In this document: in pieces, positions 3,001-37,699 of the stretch
Numbering within the stretch: position 1 is the stretch's first letter
Layout: each line of letters starts with the position of its first letter
From: a virus
Direction: 5' to 3' (one strand)
IMG/VR virus record: IMGVR_UViG_3300020436_000029
Location: 1-38,034 of that record
DNA length: 38,034 bases
Program-made: the position numbers and the translations under genes
The notes under the pieces: model-generated
Databases searched by the model: none
What the model saw: only the letters and a program-made list of their open reading frames with translations
Told to the model about the DNA's origin: nothing

Positions 3001-5934
3001 GATGTAATTCCAAACAAAATTAAGTTTGATGTTCCTCCTATTTGGGATCAAGACTTTAGTGCCAAAACCATTGGTGAACCAACTGCTGTAGAGAAAGTTG
3101 TTGGAATTGGTGTTGGTAACTATAAGAGACTTACTATTGAACCTACTCTAGTAGATGATGTTAGATCAGGTCCTTTCTTAATATTAGATGTATTAGACAA
3201 CTCTGTACAAAATATTGAAGCACCAGAAAATCTTTATGTTTTCCTCGATGGTGTTCTTCAGCAACAGGGTGATAATAAATCATATATTATATCAGGTCCT
3301 AATATCTTCTTCAATGTTCCTATTAAAAAGGAGATGAAGATTGATATGAGATATCTCTATGGAAGAGATGTCGGATCTATTCTCAGCATTTATGATTATG
3401 CTCCTGACACTTATTTCAGTAGATCTCAATTTGTACTTGGAACTGTAACTACTTCTGTATGGGATACATATACCGCATTTGCATGGATGGGCGATGCTGT
3501 TGGAACTCCTATCGTCGCTTATCAAAGAAGAGGAGATGGAACTCTTAATGTTCTTGGTCAAGTTACCAATCTTAGTTATGATGCAACTAATAAGTATTGG
3601 GATCTAAAAGGTCAAAATCCAAAATTAGAAGATGGTTTAGGTATTACATTCGCTGTTATATCAAAACCTGATAGAACCTTTACAATTCCTGATAACGATT
3701 TCGTTACCTCTGCTATTCAGAATTTTGACACAGATGATTTAGGTAGAAAATTATTAACTGATGACAATGCTTCTTGGTTTGGAACTATCATTGGTAAAGG
3801 TTATAGAAACCCATTTGTATATCTTGCACAGAATGATAAAGTTCGTTTAGAAGGTGAAAAATCATTCCGTAGAATTAAACAGTTACCAGAAAAAACAACT
3901 TCCAGAGAAGGTAGAGATGGAAAACAGACATCACATGAAATGTTTGGTGCTGTTGAGATTGAAAATTATGTTGGTATTACAAGAGGTGAAGGTTTATCTG
4001 TAATTGCTAAGATCACTAACGGAGTTGTTACTGAACTTGTTTGGAACCAACGTAGTTATGATCCTATTACACAACCTACAGCATATCAATATTTTACACC
4101 ACCAGTTCTTAAGTTTGTACCTGTAAATGGTGATGGTGGTGGTGCAAGAGCAAACGTTCTTGTACAAAAAGGTCAAGTCATCAGTGTTGATCTACTTGAT
4201 GGTGGTTCTGGTTATACTAAAGCACCTCAAGTAATTGTAGCACGTAGATATGACATTCTAACAGAAAGAGATATTGGTGTTTCTATAGCACAGGGTGGTA
4301 TAAATCCAGTTCCACCACCAGCTGGAACCAATCTCAATATCATCTCCTTTATTTCTGATCAGAGACTTGCTGGTCTTACAGGAATTACTGGTATTGCTGT
4401 TCTTCTTGCTAGAAGTCCATCAGATACAGATAGAGTAATTGTAAATCATGTACAACCAGCATCTGAGTTTGCTGGAGAAAATCTTGAGCAAAAGATTACT
4501 GAGACTGTAGGATTTTTAGAACCAGATATTGAAGAATTTGAAACATTAGGTGGTAAAGTAACACCAGAGAAAGAACATCTACAAGTTGTAAATGTACTTT
4601 CTACTAGTGTAGATACAATCAAGAGTAGTTCTGTTGTACAGTTTGTTAATAAGTTCGTTACAACGTTTGAGAACCTCATTCCTAATGATGCACTTACTAA
4701 CGTTGCTTACTATGCTGATGGTGCATTCTTACAAGTTGACCTAGATCCAACAGAAAATGTAGTTTACATTTCAGACACCAGTAAATTTAAACCTTTTGGT
4801 TTCTTATTAATTGGTGACGAAGTTGTATACTACTATCGCAAACTTAATGATCGTTTCCTCAAGGTACAGAGAGGAAGACAAGGAACCACTGCTCAAGCAT
4901 GGACTGCTGGTACATTCTTGAGACAAATCCCAGATCCTATCTCTGTTGCATCTGTTGCTCTTGCTCAGATTGAAGCAGAGAGTAAGTTGGTCGCAGTATC
5001 TGCTGCAACTGGAACTGTAGGAAGTGGTCAGGATAGAGTAAGACAAGAACAGTATATTACACCTGTTGTAACTTTACAATCTACATCGACTGTAGCACTT
5101 GGACAAGTACAACTTCAGAGCACTTCTACAATTACAGAGGTTATTGTTGATGCTCAGAAAGTTCATGATATTGATCCAAATAATATTACTGAAAGTACTC
5201 TTTCTCATAATGCAACACAAATAGATGCTCAGATACAAACAGTAACTAGCGAGTTCCAAACTCAAGCTATAGATCTTACTGTTACTAAAGCAGGATCTGA
5301 ATTCTTCTTCGACCTACCACCAGGCGGTGCTGTTGATGGTTATGAAGAAAGCGCATTCTTTACTGATCCAATTTCTACTAGACTAAATGGTTTTGTAGAT
5401 CTTATAGACAATCAAGGTTTATATTCTGTTAGACGTAGAGACGGAACAGACCTTGAGATTGTTAACGAAGTATTTGGTGCGTTTGCAGCATTTGTTGGAG
5501 TATACGCTAAAACAAACGCTGGTTTCACAATTAGTCATAGAGATGGTATATTTGATGCTGGTACTGCTGGTGTATCTGGATTAACTATATCAGACTTTAC
5601 TTTCTACTTCCCATCACTTACAATTAGAGATTTTGCTGAGAGAGGATCATCCTCATTTGCTTTAGATGGTACTAAGTTTATTTTGATGCCACCATCTATT
5701 CAAAATCCTGTTGCAATCAGTCAAACTGCTGCTACACCAATACCTAGCACAATAACAGTTGCAACTACAAATTACTTCCCTAGCGAAGGATACTTATTCC
5801 ATAATAATGGATCACTTACTGGTGTAATTAAATACACTGGTAAGACTGCTAACACCTTTACTGGATGTACTTTACATAACGGTGACGATCAGATTGCGTC
5901 TGGATCTGAGATAGTCCCTATAACAATTGACTAA
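1..5934 (+). CDS. Giant baseplate/virion structural protein, positional counterpart of gp7 (5' end outside window)
   Basis: The frame is open from base 1, so the gene starts upstream and 1977 residues are visible; the TTG at 70 is not a credible start because in-frame sequence before it carries the HPAG motif (bases 52-63) common in cyanophage structural proteins. It lies directly before gp8, where T4 has baseplate wedge gene 7, so a baseplate role is inferred from position rather than clear homology. It is a mosaic: LDGV-type beta units at about 481-585, 2911-3030 and 3220-3350; helical segments at about 715-1060 and 2296-2800 with an RDI...GGN signature in the second; a VGM-type unit at 1075-1215; GSGY-type repeats at 1590-2270 and 4100-4250; and two units resembling the 'RG..GT...aGT' class of tail-protein motif at about 4740-4930 and 5760-5930. 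No enzyme motif or membrane segment is seen. It could equally be called a large fibre-base protein. Confidence 0.8.
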   Translation, partial: KSKTPINQWRELIKSTTHPAGFQLFGQVDVEGTADAEMPVEMPKASHFSVVQLWDPNKNKITIESTKQVLTQTVQKIENQRIRRGVGAAASSEFNFNELRAFEFRIYNQTANFYDSTTAAGKPWWSKNPFTGYYDSEGRLKGDTVFEIRDDLDNPFTPYNVNNLIITLDGVLQDAGVSYTVSGSQITFSAPPLGPGQKQTGEGQTDLTPYGGVNFYGKYIAFKDNQYNDKHFKKLRNIFQRNGRYIDAANQIERNIEFIIEETIGWGKATYGSLDWSTKTDDYQENIRTILRALDHDVRFGGNVKTVDYISTFNNDDDYLYIQNYRTESSNIFAYAVRLAKLATRNWDYTDVGASYLQGSRTVAISSTENVAVGMYLSSGRAFPVDTKITAINNATQVTVSHAALANSGGGGGAPVGVTDLSGTATTSSVPTDTGRVPVGDTYELPSGVTVTVPSSFSGTDQITFSWSGLNNGMYFKAGELIGKNKTWIQETSINWAKSTYPSLNWEDPTSTRVQATATAQTLRTLDPGAVQINNAGDGYETAPTLYVFPASDTVVSPTNQIGIAVELSADLELNGYVKSITITDGGSGYDPANPPTVTLGGDMYGLTATAVVTGDAVTSISIDGYNGERYSNKEITIDGNATAEIVLGKKVSNIWITEGGSGFTDGTPIGYIRGIGGSPTTDLDAQCNLTKRTTFTVTNPGFGYAKNPTVTLSASGAGLFPPTATAEIDEDGRITYIYIDQEGSYGLTVSSVNITGFAPGGTYDIQTKCSRDIGYLVDAIAYHLQLGGNENVVQFAQFYYQGAKYPNGEKLEFVNNEITETLATFQYAKDQMITAMRNGGQVTDPNVLVDSATPVCAEVEATLNTYYEIVDDIFNKGKGAVAKTSINPNRSGYYTGTLTYSNYNIILDPNIPAQECEDVISGITSLYDNIDDIIKQETVVRTLPDFIDGETKEFDLFWNDGTNVLLEEDENLFLTLNAVLQKPKYTEEYPLFDAYFIDKDVIPNKIKFDVPPIWDQDFSAKTIGEPTAVEKVVGIGVGNYKRLTIEPTLVDDVRSGPFLILDVLDNSVQNIEAPENLYVFLDGVLQQQGDNKSYIISGPNIFFNVPIKKEMKIDMRYLYGRDVGSILSIYDYAPDTYFSRSQFVLGTVTTSVWDTYTAFAWMGDAVGTPIVAYQRRGDGTLNVLGQVTNLSYDATNKYWDLKGQNPKLEDGLGITFAVISKPDRTFTIPDNDFVTSAIQNFDTDDLGRKLLTDDNASWFGTIIGKGYRNPFVYLAQNDKVRLEGEKSFRRIKQLPEKTTSREGRDGKQTSHEMFGAVEIENYVGITRGEGLSVIAKITNGVVTELVWNQRSYDPITQPTAYQYFTPPVLKFVPVNGDGGGARANVLVQKGQVISVDLLDGGSGYTKAPQVIVARRYDILTERDIGVSIAQGGINPVPPPAGTNLNIISFISDQRLAGLTGITGIAVLLARSPSDTDRVIVNHVQPASEFAGENLEQKITETVGFLEPDIEEFETLGGKVTPEKEHLQVVNVLSTSVDTIKSSSVVQFVNKFVTTFENLIPNDALTNVAYYADGAFLQVDLDPTENVVYISDTSKFKPFGFLLIGDEVVYYYRKLNDRFLKVQRGRQGTTAQAWTAGTFLRQIPDPISVASVALAQIEAESKLVAVSAATGTVGSGQDRVRQEQYITPVVTLQSTSTVALGQVQLQSTSTITEVIVDAQKVHDIDPNNITESTLSHNATQIDAQIQTVTSEFQTQAIDLTVTKAGSEFFFDLPPGGAVDGYEESAFFTDPISTRLNGFVDLIDNQGLYSVRRRDGTDLEIVNEVFGAFAAFVGVYAKTNAGFTISHRDGIFDAGTAGVSGLTISDFTFYFPSLTIRDFAERGSSSFALDGTKFILMPPSIQNPVAISQTAATPIPSTITVATTNYFPSEGYLFHNNGSLTGVIKYTGKTANTFTGCTLHNGDDQIASGSEIVPITID

Positions 5935-5954
5935 ATACAGTATAAATATAAATA
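5930..5954 (+). promoter_or_regulatory. Cluster of T4-type late promoter boxes before gp8
   Basis: ACTAAATA (5930-5937) overlaps the stop codon of the upstream gene (5932-5934). It is followed by two perfect TATAAATA octamers, at 5941-5948 and 5947-5954, which overlap by two bases. TATAAATA is the T4 late promoter -10 consensus, recognised by the gp55 sigma factor with the gp45 clamp. The cluster sits 40-60 bases before the gp8 start, in the only gap between these genes. Which box is used cannot be told from sequence. Confidence 0.7.
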
Positions 5955-5993: not shown

Positions 5994-7814
5994 ATGGCTG
6001 CTATTATTTCTGATAAGTTTCGTATATTTAACGCGAAGCAATTCTTAGAATCTCTCACAGAAGGATCATCTGCTACAGATCCAGGTAGGACGAGGATGTA
6101 TTTCTTCGTAGGTCGCCCTCAACCTTGGAGAGCATATCTAGAAATCTATTCAAAAGGTTCCACGACCTTTACTGTTGGTGACGAGGTATACGTCGGAACA
6201 TATAATTCCACTACTTTCCGTGCCACCATTGCTGCAGTTTATGATAGTGCCCTTCTTTTGACCGACGTTTTTGGTAGCAGCGGTGTTAACTCTACTCCTT
6301 CATTAGGTGCCGACCTCAAGTGTCGTACTGGCGCAACAGGTGGTTCTGGTGGATCCGATACAGGTGCTACTGCAAATGCAGGCATCTACCGTTATGCAAC
6401 TGAGGATCTTCCTCCATTGCCTCTTGATAACCAAGCAGAAAAAATAGCAATTTATGATGAACTAATCGCTGCAAAACGTATTACTGATGCGTTTGCAAGA
6501 ACTGTAATCCGTCGTTATAACTGGAATACTTCAGTCAACCCTAAGTTTGACATGTGGAAACCAGATTATGCTGACACTCCTGCTGGTGGTGGTGCTATTG
6601 GTAAATCAACCGCTACTGGTCAAACAAGTATTTCTGAAGCGAAGTTCTATGTAATGAACTCTAAGTATGAAGTATTCAAATGCCTTTACAATGGTGAGGA
6701 TCCTTCTAACGCTACTGGACAGGCTGCAACTGAAGAACCAATTAAAGATGCAGCAAACTATAGTTCATCTACTGGTCTTTATACTGAGACAACTGGTGCA
6801 GGTTATATTTGGAAGTATATGTACACCATCCCAACTGATGATGTTATTAAATTCCTTTCATCTGACTTTATGCCAATCGTTCTAAGCAATGATGCTTCTA
6901 GAATTGGTGTTGTAGCACAAGTAGTTGATGGTGCTATTGATGCTGTTATTATTGAAGACGCTGGTTCTACCTTACCTGCATCTCAAACTTTATACACTGC
7001 TATTAAAGGAGATGGATCAGGTGGTATTGTAAAATTTACAACAAATGGTTCTGGTACAATAACAGCTGCTGAAATTCAAGCTCGTGGATCAGGTTACACC
7101 TACGGAAATGTTCTTTTAGGTAATGGTAACTTATTCTCTGATGCTGGTTTATCAAGTGCTGTTGCAACTCCTGGCGGTGCAACTGGTGCTCTAGAAGTAA
7201 TCTTACCTCCTTTAGGTGGTCATGGTTCTGACCATGAAACAGAACTTAATGGTAAGCGTGTAATGACAAACATTCGTTTGACATACGCTGAAGGTTCTGG
7301 AGACTTCCCTGTAGATAACGACTTCCGTCGTATTGGTATTATTGCTGATCCTATTGAGCAAGGTTCTACTAACTTTATCACTGATGATACTGTTTCTGGT
7401 TTAAAAGCAATCAAAATTACTGGTGCAACTGCTGATTACGCAATTGACGAGAAGATCCAACAGACTGTTTCTGGTGGTACAGCATATGGTACAGTTGTAT
7501 CATGGACATTAGACAGTGGTTCTACTACTGCTGGAGTTCTTAAGTATATCCAAACAAACGATTCACACGTTGATAGTGGTGTTGTAAGAGATTTCGTATC
7601 TGGTGCAAACGCAATCACTGGTGAAAGTTCTACTGCATCTGGTAACGTACAGACTGGTTATAGTGGTACAACTTATGGTTCTACCTTTGCATCTGGACTT
7701 GCACCTGCTGAAATTAAGAACAACTCTGGTGAAATAATCTACGTTGAGAACAGAAGACTAATTACTCGTGCTCCTGACCAGATTGAAGACATCAAATTAG
7801 TTATCGAATTCTAA
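5994..7814 (+). CDS. gp8: Baseplate wedge subunit gp8
   Basis: The N-terminus (MAAIISDKFRIFNAK...) followed by a GRTRMYFFVGRPQPW segment is the form I recognise as cyanophage gp8, a structural subunit of the wedges that surround the baseplate hub. At 606 residues it is much longer than T4 gp8 (334 residues). The additional length appears to come from inserted repeat modules: an acidic/GSGY unit around residues 320-400, and an IDE...SGGTAYG unit at about residues 475-560 (bases 7420-7665) that resembles units in gp14 and the downstream giant proteins. The Gly-rich stretch near residue 115-125 looks like a linker. The ATG at 5994 is preceded by a 59-base leader with late-promoter boxes; the Shine-Dalgarno is weak (CGGAC about 12 bases before). 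A terminator follows the stop, so gp8 ends a transcription unit. Confidence 0.93.
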   Translation: MAAIISDKFRIFNAKQFLESLTEGSSATDPGRTRMYFFVGRPQPWRAYLEIYSKGSTTFTVGDEVYVGTYNSTTFRATIAAVYDSALLLTDVFGSSGVNSTPSLGADLKCRTGATGGSGGSDTGATANAGIYRYATEDLPPLPLDNQAEKIAIYDELIAAKRITDAFARTVIRRYNWNTSVNPKFDMWKPDYADTPAGGGAIGKSTATGQTSISEAKFYVMNSKYEVFKCLYNGEDPSNATGQAATEEPIKDAANYSSSTGLYTETTGAGYIWKYMYTIPTDDVIKFLSSDFMPIVLSNDASRIGVVAQVVDGAIDAVIIEDAGSTLPASQTLYTAIKGDGSGGIVKFTTNGSGTITAAEIQARGSGYTYGNVLLGNGNLFSDAGLSSAVATPGGATGALEVILPPLGGHGSDHETELNGKRVMTNIRLTYAEGSGDFPVDNDFRRIGIIADPIEQGSTNFITDDTVSGLKAIKITGATADYAIDEKIQQTVSGGTAYGTVVSWTLDSGSTTAGVLKYIQTNDSHVDSGVVRDFVSGANAITGESSTASGNVQTGYSGTTYGSTFASGLAPAEIKNNSGEIIYVENRRLITRAPDQIEDIKLVIEF

Positions 7815-7829
7815 TTAAAAAAAGAATTG

Positions 7830-7861
7830 AAAATCCCTCCAGCAATGGGGGGATTTTTTTT
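7830..7861 (+). terminator. Intrinsic terminator after gp8
   Basis: AAAATCCCTCC (7830-7840) pairs with GGGGGGATTTT (7847-7857) over 11 positions with one T-G wobble, around a 6-base loop. Eight T residues run from 7854 to 7861. It starts 15 bases after the gp8 stop and ends just before the next late-promoter box. Confidence 0.9.
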
Positions 7862-7867
7862 AACTCT

Positions 7868-7875
7868 ACTAAATA
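7868..7875 (+). promoter_or_regulatory. T4-type late promoter box (ACTAAATA)
   Basis: ACTAAATA matches TATAAATA at six of eight positions and lies 38 bases before the next gene, immediately after the terminator. The arrangement implies that transcription restarts here for the DUF4815-type gene. Confidence 0.6.
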
Positions 7876-7912
7876 CTAAATGACTAGATACTAGCGATAT
7901 TGGCGGAGTACA

Positions 7913-34923: not shown

Positions 34924-35133
34924 ATGGATCCTGCAACACTGAAGAAAAATTTTGAGGAACAAATTGCTACTACTGAAAAGCAAATTGTAGAATTAGAAGA
35001 CAATCTCAAGAAAGCACAAGAATATAAAATTAAATTACAAGGTGGTCTAGAAACCATCGGACTTTTAGAAGACAAGAAAGACGAACCAGCACCTGATACT
35101 GCTCCGTCAAGCATTGATCCTACAGTCCAATAA
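34924..35133 (+). CDS. Small coiled-coil protein before the neck genes
   Basis: The 69-residue product is almost entirely one helix: residues ~5-45 have heptad-like spacing (ATTEKQIVELEDNLKKAQEY), followed by an acidic, Pro-rich tail. Small proteins of this kind precede gp13 in other T4-like cyanophages as I recall, but no function is known to me. It starts 32 bases after the chaperone-like gene. A late-promoter-like box overlaps its stop codon and a terminator follows six bases later, so it ends a transcription unit. A role as a virion assembly factor is a guess from context. Confidence 0.75.
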   Translation: MDPATLKKNFEEQIATTEKQIVELEDNLKKAQEYKIKLQGGLETIGLLEDKKDEPAPDTAPSSIDPTVQ

Positions 35134-35136
35134 ATA
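35129..35136 (+). promoter_or_regulatory. T4-type late promoter box (AATAAATA) overlapping a stop codon
   Basis: AATAAATA spans the TAA stop (35131-35133) of the coiled-coil gene. It sits before the terminator stem, so a transcript started here would carry the left arm and be exposed to termination. Confidence 0.4.
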
Positions 35137-35138
35137 TC

Positions 35139-35175
35139 AAATCCCTTCTTCCTAAATAGTATGAAGGGATTTTTT
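35139..35175 (+). terminator. Intrinsic terminator before gp13, with a promoter box in its loop
   Basis: AAATCCCTTC (35139-35148) pairs perfectly with GAAGGGATTT (35163-35172) over 10 base pairs, and a T-run continues to 35175. The 14-base loop holds CCTAAATA. The stem resembles the gp8 terminator (AAATCCC...GGGATTT). Confidence 0.85.
35151..35158 (+). promoter_or_regulatory. Late promoter box (CCTAAATA) inside the terminator loop
   Basis: CCTAAATA keeps the TAAATA core of the late consensus. By T4 geometry (start about six bases after the box) a transcript would begin near 35164, at the right arm of the terminator, leaving out the left arm. It would drive the gp13-gp14-gp15-gp16 block. Confidence 0.55.
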
Positions 35176-35182
35176 GTATGTA

Positions 35183-36007
35183 ATGGCATCTCCAAGTTCA
35201 AGAGCAGAATTAATTACGTATGCTAAGAGACAACTTGGCGAACCTGTGCTGCAAGTCAATATAGATGATGAACAGGTCAACAACGTAATAGACGACACGT
35301 ATCAGTTTTTTCAAGAGAACTGTTACAATGGGATGGAGCGTGCATACTTATATCACGAAATTACTGCAGATGATAAAACTCGTTTCGCAGCAACCACTAC
35401 TACTATAGCTCAAGATGGTGGTGTAGCCCCAGTTGCAGTTGGAACTTGGAAAGAAGCGCAAAACTTCATTCCGATTCCTGATCATGTAGTTGGTATTACT
35501 AGAGTATTTGGTCTTGTTAGTAATTCAATTCGTTCTAATCTCTTTGGTGTTGAGTATCAGTTATTCTTGAATGATCTATATGCATTTGGATCACTTGATA
35601 TTCTTAATTATTTTATGACTAAACAATATCTAGAAACTCTAGATATGGTTTTGAACAATGGTTCATTCCAACAGTTTAGATTTACAGCACGTCGTGATCG
35701 TCTTTACATGGATCTTGACAAAGATTTTCTCAAAAATGGATCCAATATCCTAATTGAGTGTCATCGTCTTATAGATCCTACGGAAGCTACAGAAATGAAC
35801 AACGATATGTTTGTTAAGAAGTATGCTACTGCTCTTATGAAGAGACAGTGGGGTATGAATCTAATCAAATATACTAACGTTCAACTACCTGGCGGTGTAA
35901 CACTTAATGGTAGAGAAATTTATATGGACGCACTAGCAGAAATTGAGAAAATCGAAAGTGAGGTTCTCAGTAAGTATGCTATACCACCAATGGATATGAT
36001 CGGATAA
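35183..36007 (+). CDS. gp13: Neck protein gp13
   Basis: The sequence MASPSSRAELITYAKRQLGE, followed by VNIDDEQVNNVIDDTYQFFQ, is the form I recognise as cyanophage gp13; T4 gp13 is 309 residues, this one 274. In T4, gp13 forms the upper neck ring beneath the portal and, with gp14, connects the DNA-filled head to the tail. The ATG at 35183 is chosen because the family starts at MASPSS; a TTG at 35174 would add three residues and sits at better spacing (five bases) from the AAGGG ribosome-site candidate. It begins a tightly packed block: gp14 starts one base after its stop. Transcription probably starts at the box in the terminator loop. Confidence 0.93.
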   Translation: MASPSSRAELITYAKRQLGEPVLQVNIDDEQVNNVIDDTYQFFQENCYNGMERAYLYHEITADDKTRFAATTTTIAQDGGVAPVAVGTWKEAQNFIPIPDHVVGITRVFGLVSNSIRSNLFGVEYQLFLNDLYAFGSLDILNYFMTKQYLETLDMVLNNGSFQQFRFTARRDRLYMDLDKDFLKNGSNILIECHRLIDPTEATEMNNDMFVKKYATALMKRQWGMNLIKYTNVQLPGGVTLNGREIYMDALAEIEKIESEVLSKYAIPPMDMIG

Positions 36008-36008
36008 A

Positions 36009-36899
36009 ATGCCTACCAGTCCCTACTTTCCAACTTACCACCAAGGTCACAGTGGAGAACAGAATCTCGTACAAGATCTCGTGGATGAGCAAATCAAATT
36101 GTTTGGTTCAGATATATATTATCTACCAAAGACGATTCTAGCGGATAATACTTTGGATGAAGTTAGATACACTAAGTATCAAGATCAATTCCAAATTGAA
36201 ATGATGTTAATTAACGTCATGGGTTTTGGAGATAACGCAGAATTTGTAAGTAAGTTTGGTTTGCAAATTACAGACGAGATAATTTTTCGTGTGTCTACAA
36301 AAAGATGGGAAGAAGAAGTAGCAGAACATAGTATGGCTGCAAAACTTACAGTTCCTGAGAGACCTAATGAGGGAGACCTTTTATATTATCCTCTCACACA
36401 AAACTTATATGAAATTAAATATGTTGGAAAAGAAGAACCTTTTTTCCAGTTTGGTAAGATACAATTTTATGCGATCACTGCAGAACTATATCAGGTTGGT
36501 TCAGACGATCTTGCTACAGGTGTTGCAGAGATAGATGCTATAGAAGAATTGTTCGATACTGCTATATCTCTTACAATGGGAGTTGGTGGTACAGGTGATT
36601 TTACTGCTGGTGAGACAGTAACTGGTGGTACTACTTCTACAACAGCAGAAGTCAAGTCATGGGATAGTTCTACAAGAATACTACAGGTAATTAATAGAAC
36701 TGGAACATTTGCTGCAAATGAATCACTTACTGGTAATGATAGTAGTGCTGTATGGGTTGTATCAACCTTCGACACATTGCAGAATACAAACAGTGAGTAT
36801 GATCAAAATAGAGCAATAGAGAATGAAGCTGACAATGTAGTTGATTGGTCAGAAGGTAATCCATTCGGTGAGTTTGGTAATTTTACAGGTAGCATATAA
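36009..36899 (+). CDS. gp14: Neck protein gp14
   Basis: Order and sequence (MPTSPYFPTYHQGHSGEQNL, then LVDEQIKLFGSDIYYLPK) identify gp14, the second neck ring of T4-like phages, which joins gp13 to the tail-completion protein gp15. It has 296 residues against 256 in T4. The extra length is a Thr/Gly-rich module at about residues 190-252 (bases 36580-36765): F-x-AGETVTGGTTSTTAEV..W......VINRTGTFAANESLTG. The end (NPFGEFGNF) follows an acidic segment, ENEADNVVDWSEG, which I recall in other cyanophage gp14 proteins, so the module is probably a lineage feature rather than a recent insertion. The stop and the gp15 start share one base (TAATG). Confidence 0.92.
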   Translation: MPTSPYFPTYHQGHSGEQNLVQDLVDEQIKLFGSDIYYLPKTILADNTLDEVRYTKYQDQFQIEMMLINVMGFGDNAEFVSKFGLQITDEIIFRVSTKRWEEEVAEHSMAAKLTVPERPNEGDLLYYPLTQNLYEIKYVGKEEPFFQFGKIQFYAITAELYQVGSDDLATGVAEIDAIEELFDTAISLTMGVGGTGDFTAGETVTGGTTSTTAEVKSWDSSTRILQVINRTGTFAANESLTGNDSSAVWVVSTFDTLQNTNSEYDQNRAIENEADNVVDWSEGNPFGEFGNFTGSI

Positions 36900-37699
36900 T
36901 GTTAGGAAATCATTTTTACAACCAGATAGTTCGTAAGAACATCATAGCATTTGGAACTCTCTTCAATAATATTACAATGAAGAGTACAGATCCAAGCACT
37001 GGTGATGTATTAGAAGAAATTAAAGTACCGTTAGCATACGGTCCTAAACAAAAATTTATTGTACGTTTAGAAGAAAACGCAAGTTCTAGAAAGGTAGCGA
37101 TTACTTTACCTAGATTGTATTTTGAAATGACGAGTATCGATTATGATCCTACTCGCAAAACATCTCCAATTCAAAAATACAAAACTATCATTGATGGCAA
37201 TGGTGGAGAGGTAAGAGTTCAATACGTTCCTGTTCCATATAACTTATCATTTGAACTTGGTGTTATGGCAAAGTCACAAGACGATGCTTTACAAATTACT
37301 GAGCAAATCTTACCATATTTTCAACCATCATTTAGTGTTACTCTCAACATGATACCTGACATGAATGAGAAAAGAGATATTGCTGTTGTATTAAATAACG
37401 TTACATACGAAGACGCATGGGACGATAGTTTTTACGAACGTAGATATATCGTTTACACTTTAAACTTCACAATGAAGTCTTACTTATACGGTCCTTACAA
37501 CACATCAGATGTTATCAAGAAAGCAATCATACATGAGACACTTGGTGACGCTGCAGTCAACCGTAGAACTATTACAAGAACATATACACCCAAAGCAAAA
37601 ACAGATATCAATCAAGACGGTCAAATTGATGCTGCAGATGATGTATTGGTCGATGCTGGTGACGACTTTGGATTTAATGAAGGAATAGAATTCTTATGA
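36899..37699 (+). CDS. gp15: Tail completion / sheath stabiliser protein gp15
   Basis: The 266 residues match T4 gp15 in length (272) and in position. In T4, gp15 caps the finished tail and sheath, and provides the surface to which the head-neck docks. The start MLGNHFYNQIVRKNIIAFGT and the internal NMIPDMNEKRDIAVVLNNV are the family features I recognise. The C-terminus is unusual: residues 236-247 (bases 37604-37639) read D-I-N-Q-D-G-Q-I-D-A-A-D, an exact EF-hand/dockerin-type calcium loop. The stop overlaps the gp16 start (ATGA), so the two are translationally coupled. Confidence 0.92.
   Translation: MLGNHFYNQIVRKNIIAFGTLFNNITMKSTDPSTGDVLEEIKVPLAYGPKQKFIVRLEENASSRKVAITLPRLYFEMTSIDYDPTRKTSPIQKYKTIIDGNGGEVRVQYVPVPYNLSFELGVMAKSQDDALQITEQILPYFQPSFSVTLNMIPDMNEKRDIAVVLNNVTYEDAWDDSFYERRYIVYTLNFTMKSYLYGPYNTSDVIKKAIIHETLGDAAVNRRTITRTYTPKAKTDINQDGQIDAADDVLVDAGDDFGFNEGIEFL

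Follow-up and report, generated by a model that had tools for sequence, protein, structure and literature searches.

How can one transcription unit end and the next begin within 49 bases? The question arises from a gap in a 38,034-nucleotide stretch of viral DNA (the window), between an upstream ORF of 69 amino acids (34924–35133) and gp13 (35183–36007, with its ATG at 35183); the features of this gap and its flanking genes are all on the + strand. The upstream ORF, assigned by PHROG to phrog_580 (function not known), is the end of the upstream unit. gp13 encodes the neck protein, or head-tail adaptor Ad2 (PHROG, E 2e-43), and the first gene after it encodes a gp14-like head closure protein Hc2 (36009–36899; PHROG), followed by that for a gp15-like tail sheath stabilizer (36899–37699; PHROG). 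The phrog_580 ORF is small and rich in Glu and Lys, and comparable short ORFs occur in several relatives.

The gap holds an element in which a late-type promoter box is nested within a hairpin. The left arm AAATCCCTTC (35139–35148), identified by sequence, fold, and covariation, is separated from the right arm GAAGGGATTT (35163–35172) by a 14-nt loop TTCCTAAATAGTAT (35149–35162), and the T-run of this terminator-like hairpin spans 35170–35175. Within the loop is the T4-type box CCTAAATA (35151–35158), whose TAAATA core is present in every stem-bearing relative seen. The right arm includes AAGGG (35164–35168), a weak Shine-Dalgarno (SD) candidate as judged by an anti-SD pairing calculation. A first-pass annotation of this DNA had described the 10-bp stem, the loop with its box, the T-run, and AAGGG, and each was found where it had been placed. 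The RNA from 35125 to 35190 has a predicted folding energy of −17 kcal/mol (z −3.55), and none of 200 shuffled sequences folded equally well. At ~−13 kcal/mol, the stem itself (10 bp, 14-nt loop) is less stable than those of most relatives (−16 to −22). On the + strand of the 38-kb window, a TAAATA is enclosed only once by a stem with ≥10 Watson-Crick pairs (≥4 G-C), versus a mean of 0.0 in 200 Markov samples. TAAATA is enriched in the gaps of the window (9 vs 1.5 in shuffles) and rarer than chance in the window overall. Three TAAATA boxes (CTAAATA, TATAAATATAAATA) are grouped in one gap at 5932–5954, before an ORF at 5994. A terminator scan of the window, with a loop limit of ≤8 nt, omitted the gp13 element; an Rfam search of the window gave no match at gathering score, and a sigma-70 scan gave chance-level matches only, none informative at the element.

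As judged by folds and T counts, the hairpin has the makeup of an intrinsic (Rho-independent) terminator: a stable, G+C-containing stem is followed immediately by a U-tract on the transcribed strand. Five to seven T occur among the 7 nt following GGGA in 53 distinct leaders, and the T-run is nearly universal in class I. Unlike that of the usual terminator, the loop of the element bears a promoter and is longer (7–15 nt). To our knowledge cyanobacteria lack Rho, and intrinsic terminators are therefore the expected device. RNA would be released at the U-tract of the gp13 hairpin.

The nested box resembles the T4-type late promoters TATAAATA and NATAAATA of S-PM2 and other cyanomyoviruses in its TAAATA core, in a purine at +1 spacing, and in its location upstream of late structural genes. 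Late boxes, together with g55, g33, and g45, have been reported in cyanomyoviruses (PMC2984593). CCTAAATA deviates from the published cyanophage NATAAATA at one position, and it has C, not A, ahead of TAAATA; in relatives this base is always A or C. T4 late transcripts start ~6 nt after the box. This spacing gives a predicted transcription start (+1) at 35164, within the right arm, where a purine is present, a match of sequence only. Among the 98 distinct gp13 leaders that have a box, 94 have a purine (A or G) as the sixth base past it, and bases 1–5 are mixed. In the window's class, base 6 coincides with the first bases of a conserved (GA)AGGGA, and therefore the predicted start divides the hairpin arms. 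Since the start would open the right arm, a late-promoter transcript would lack the left arm, as the first-pass annotation had anticipated in proposing a start near 35164. Initiation at the nested box would be carried out late in infection by the gp55/gp33/gp45-dependent polymerase. There is a second late-type box, AATAAATA (35129–35136), which is not conserved in relatives. Transcription solely from this box is unlikely, because it overlaps the stop codon of the upstream ORF and is absent in many relatives.

The linkage between stem and box was examined in 278 gp13 leaders from T4-like marine phages, gathered by protein similarity alone. A box and a terminator-like hairpin occur together in 182, a box only in 41, and neither in 55; because many are close relatives, these are not 278 independent cases. 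A hairpin without a box was seen in none of the 278. The first-pass annotation had named a stem retained after loss of TAAATA as an observation that would speak against it, and had suggested an alignment of relatives, in which we found that stem and loop box co-occur and that the stem covaries. In 32 distinct elements, including two in which the stem has been lost, 92.1% of stem cells are paired, versus 81.5% when shuffled, and six stem pairs are altered on both sides. The covariation score is 0.310, versus 0.124 for shuffled sequences (0/500) and ≤0.099 for a slid control, the latter being biased toward the structure because the structure was read off the same sequences. The stems contain 40 G-U cells versus 2 A-C cells, with G-U on the sense strand only, and the selected structure therefore appears to be a sense-strand RNA.

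Nearly all of 80 IMG/VR loci from a gp13 protein search have AATCCCTTCTTCC-TAAATA-GGTAAGAAGGGATTTTTT ahead of gp13, and the stem in these close relatives is usually 12 bp, better than the 10 bp in the window. The element persists in L021, L026, and L027, which seem to have another ORF upstream. A sub-family pattern matched 76 IMG/VR contigs, with gp13 next in 75; the 76th contig stops 16 bases later. Inner arms have been rebuilt in relatives (CTTCTT/AAGAAG, CCTG/CAGG, CTTC/GAAG, and CATG/CATG). In the seven loci of the L013 group, the stem has been rebuilt through compensatory A/T changes as AATAATCCC-TAAATATAAAAGAA-GGGATTATT (9 bp) and the T-run is broken (GGGATTATT), so some lineages keep the stem without a good U-tract. 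The left arm has been lost in L078 and L080, where box, right arm, and T-run are still present, and in L152, where box and right arm are. A second search by protein, together with annotated phages, supplied distant relatives. Their elements include AAATCCCTATCTG-ATAAATA-CAGGTAGGGATTT in S-PM2; AAGTCCCTGCCTG-ATAAATA-CAGGTAGGGACTT in S-RIM32, Syn1, S-RIM44, and S-H9-2; and AAATCCCTGCTTC-CTAAATA-GAAGTAGGGATTT in Sf-CH3. The arms are AATTCCCTGCTTC/GAAGTAGGGAATT in L137 and ATCCCTACATG/CATGTAGGGAT in L160, and have been rebuilt as AGTCCTCT/AGAGGACT in L275. Nesting is conserved across gp13 proteins to ~50% identity. At the level of sequence comparison, this shows that in many ocean cyanobacterial viruses selection keeps stem and box together ahead of the neck gene.

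Other marine T4-like phages have a second geometry in the gp13 leader, TATAAATACCTCTAG-GAAA-CTAGGGG-TATTTTTTTATGG, with a GAAA loop and the box placed in the hairpin's 5′ foot. The predicted start, AGGAAAC, omits most of the left arm. gp13 is next in all 80 contigs examined from a scan with this pattern, and the isolate S-SCSM2R carries this geometry. Some gp13 leaders have a box without a stem. In the L156 group (also L157–L159, L164, L166, and L167), a terminator-like hairpin GGAGGGGGGGCAACCCCCTCTTTTTTT and two TAAATA boxes lie side by side, with the terminator ahead of the box and clear of the ribosome site. The window has a comparable tandem at 7815–7912, ahead of a 2695-amino acid ORF, in which a terminator-like AAATCCCTCCAGCAATGGGGGGATTTTTTTT is followed by CTAAATA. 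The tandem arrangements, like the nested element, place a terminator and a late promoter at a unit boundary, but the two do not overlap, and stem and promoter share no DNA. Leaders in which gp13 directly adjoins the ORF before it have no box (P-SSM2, Syn33, S-CAM1, S-CAM3, S-T4, Melnitz-2, P-RSM6, and ACG-2014f). A tree of gp13 implies several gains or losses of the nested classes (8 changes for class I and 10 for class II, approximate counts because automatic class labels err at the margins, e.g., L138). Short stems around TAAATACC..GGTA are retained or rebuilt (ACATCT/AGATGT) without a T-run in the L259, L265, and L268 leaders, and these are possibly a purely translational version.

In the 37-base element, a T4-type late promoter dependent on gp55/gp33 is probably fused to an intrinsic terminator. 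Polymerase from the upstream tail-fiber/small-gene unit would transcribe both arms, and the hairpin and U-tract would stop most of this transcription. Late RNA polymerase would bind CCTAAATA in the loop DNA and start ~6 nt downstream of the box, at the right-arm boundary. The late RNA, having no left arm, would form no hairpin and would pass through the T-run to give a gp13-gp14-gp15 mRNA. Masking of the ribosome site in read-through RNA may form a weaker second layer; the case for it is more convincing in sister elements, but it is possible at gp13 as well. We infer termination, initiation, and the use of gp55 from sequence, predicted fold, covariation, G-U strand bias, box-stem linkage, and the +1 purine. 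The earlier idea that one element ends the upstream unit and restarts the neck unit thus appears sound as to a stem and box that are nested, covarying, and linked in relatives, but its ribosome-site switch is weak here.

Late promoters, intrinsic terminators, and starts that remove a hairpin arm are each already known separately. In T4 e, soc, 49, and I-TevI (PMC3014915), and in segB and mobE of phage Aeh1 (PMC2988022), a late promoter lies within hairpin DNA, in the region encoding the 5′ arm of a hairpin that masks the ribosome-binding site, with late RNA lacking that arm and read-through RNA containing the full hairpin. The gp13 element is like those of T4 e, soc, 49, and I-TevI/II/III, segB, and Aeh1 mobE in having the promoter within hairpin DNA and a predicted late RNA without the 5′ arm. 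It differs from them in adding a U-tract, in placing the box in the loop, in having a weak and distant ribosome-site candidate, and in preceding a neck structural gene. Our literature search, which lay outside the S-PM2 genome and Syn9 transcriptome papers, turned up no cyanophage described as carrying a late promoter within the loop of a hairpin with a U-tract.

Predicted folds pair every base of AAGGGA in read-through RNA and leave it open in late RNA, in line with the first-pass suggestion of a hidden AAGGG. However, AAGGG is a weak SD sequence (calculated anti-SD pairing −3.8 kcal/mol), situated 12 nt from the ATG of the window's gp13 by our script's measure and 12–19 nt from the ATG in class I leaders (the S-PM2 group has ~19 nt between AGGG and ATG). 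With an AGGG-ATG distance that is long and variable, support for a hidden ribosome site at the window's gp13 is weak. AAGGG would be well spaced from a TTG at 35174 in the gp13 frame, but this alternative start was dropped, since the S-PM2 group does not conserve the frame. Masking is much more plausible at two other places. The second gp13 class has an SD UAGGGGUA (−6.3 kcal/mol, 7–11 nt), for which hiding is possible, and a site after mazG has the SD GGGAGG (−10.9 kcal/mol, 6–8 nt), which is fully paired in the predicted read-through RNA and for which hiding is plausible.

The main role of the hairpin might instead be to conceal the ribosome site in RNA initiated upstream, with late RNA lacking the left arm being translated and the T-run being incidental, as in a T4 gene e or I-TevI type of translational switch. 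This reading, which we consider rather unlikely, draws on the identical topology of T4 e, soc, 49, I-TevI, mobE, and segB, on the pairing of AAGGGA in read-through but not late RNA, on the short stems without a T-run in L259 and L265, and on the strong SD hidden in the mazG element. It accounts poorly for the weak, distant SD candidate and nearly universal T-run of class I, and for the L156 group, whose terminator precedes the box and leaves the ribosome site untouched.

Conservation of both loop and stem, as in protein-bound hairpins, would also suit a UAAAUA-loop hairpin acting as a site of RNA processing, stability, or protein binding, with the box being no promoter. This is very improbable, as the box survives loss of the stem (L078, L080, and L152), occurs in leaders of the stemless and tandem kinds, has a purine at base 6, and is also enriched elsewhere among the window's gaps. 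A cruciform or protein-bound palindrome at the DNA level would have perfect inverted repeats that covary too, but the G-U cells are mismatches tolerated by sense RNA only and the T-run is on the + side only, making such a structure extremely unlikely. The tandem pair at 7815–7912 indicates that terminator and late box also occur apart, and in so short a gap as that at gp13 the two, each of an ordinary kind, might overlap by chance. We give this next to no weight: it is already contradicted by comparative sequence data, namely nesting conserved to ~50% gp13 identity, two geometries, compensatory changes, and a second recurrent site. The fused terminator and late promoter is the reading we favor.

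The second site recurs after the gp41-mazG cluster, at an early/late boundary, as ACCTCCC(C)TCTAAATAGTTAGACGGGAGGTTTTTTCATG. This mazG-type element is on at least 120 IMG/VR contigs, and mazG is ≤1.5 kb upstream in 63 of 80 examined contigs that have it; the downstream genes vary (phrog_8438, phrog_1462, and others). The predicted late RNA starts ACGGGAGGUUUUUU..AUG, with the strong SD in the right arm. Examples are found in S-RSM4 (44460; L549, ~1961–2000, − strand), Syn1 (L550, ~1035–1070), and Sf-CH1b (L551, ~857–890). Whole-genome scans gave one to three nested elements each in S-PM2, S-RSM4, Syn1, Sf-CH1b, and S-SCSM2R, versus 0–1 in shuffles, and none in P-SSM2. We tentatively suggest that T4-like cyanophages may have a general, compact boundary device, in which a stretch of 35–40 bp ends read-through, masks the ribosome site of transcripts that escape, and restarts a late unit from a start that divides the arms. 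The device would recur at defined boundaries, namely before gp13 and past mazG, where replication genes give way to late ones, and would have arisen anew with varied stems and two geometries. Such a device offers a specific model for how cyanophages with few regulators separate neighboring transcription units: if it is true, one transcript stops and the next starts on shared DNA, and the new transcript cannot terminate itself. By its signature, the element would also allow the boundaries of late units to be recognized in marine phages that have not been cultured, and it would offer a compact design for an insulated promoter. In S-SCSM2R, further TAAATA-overlapping hairpins with T-runs occur directly before ORFs (L512, record position 190795; L510, 148618).
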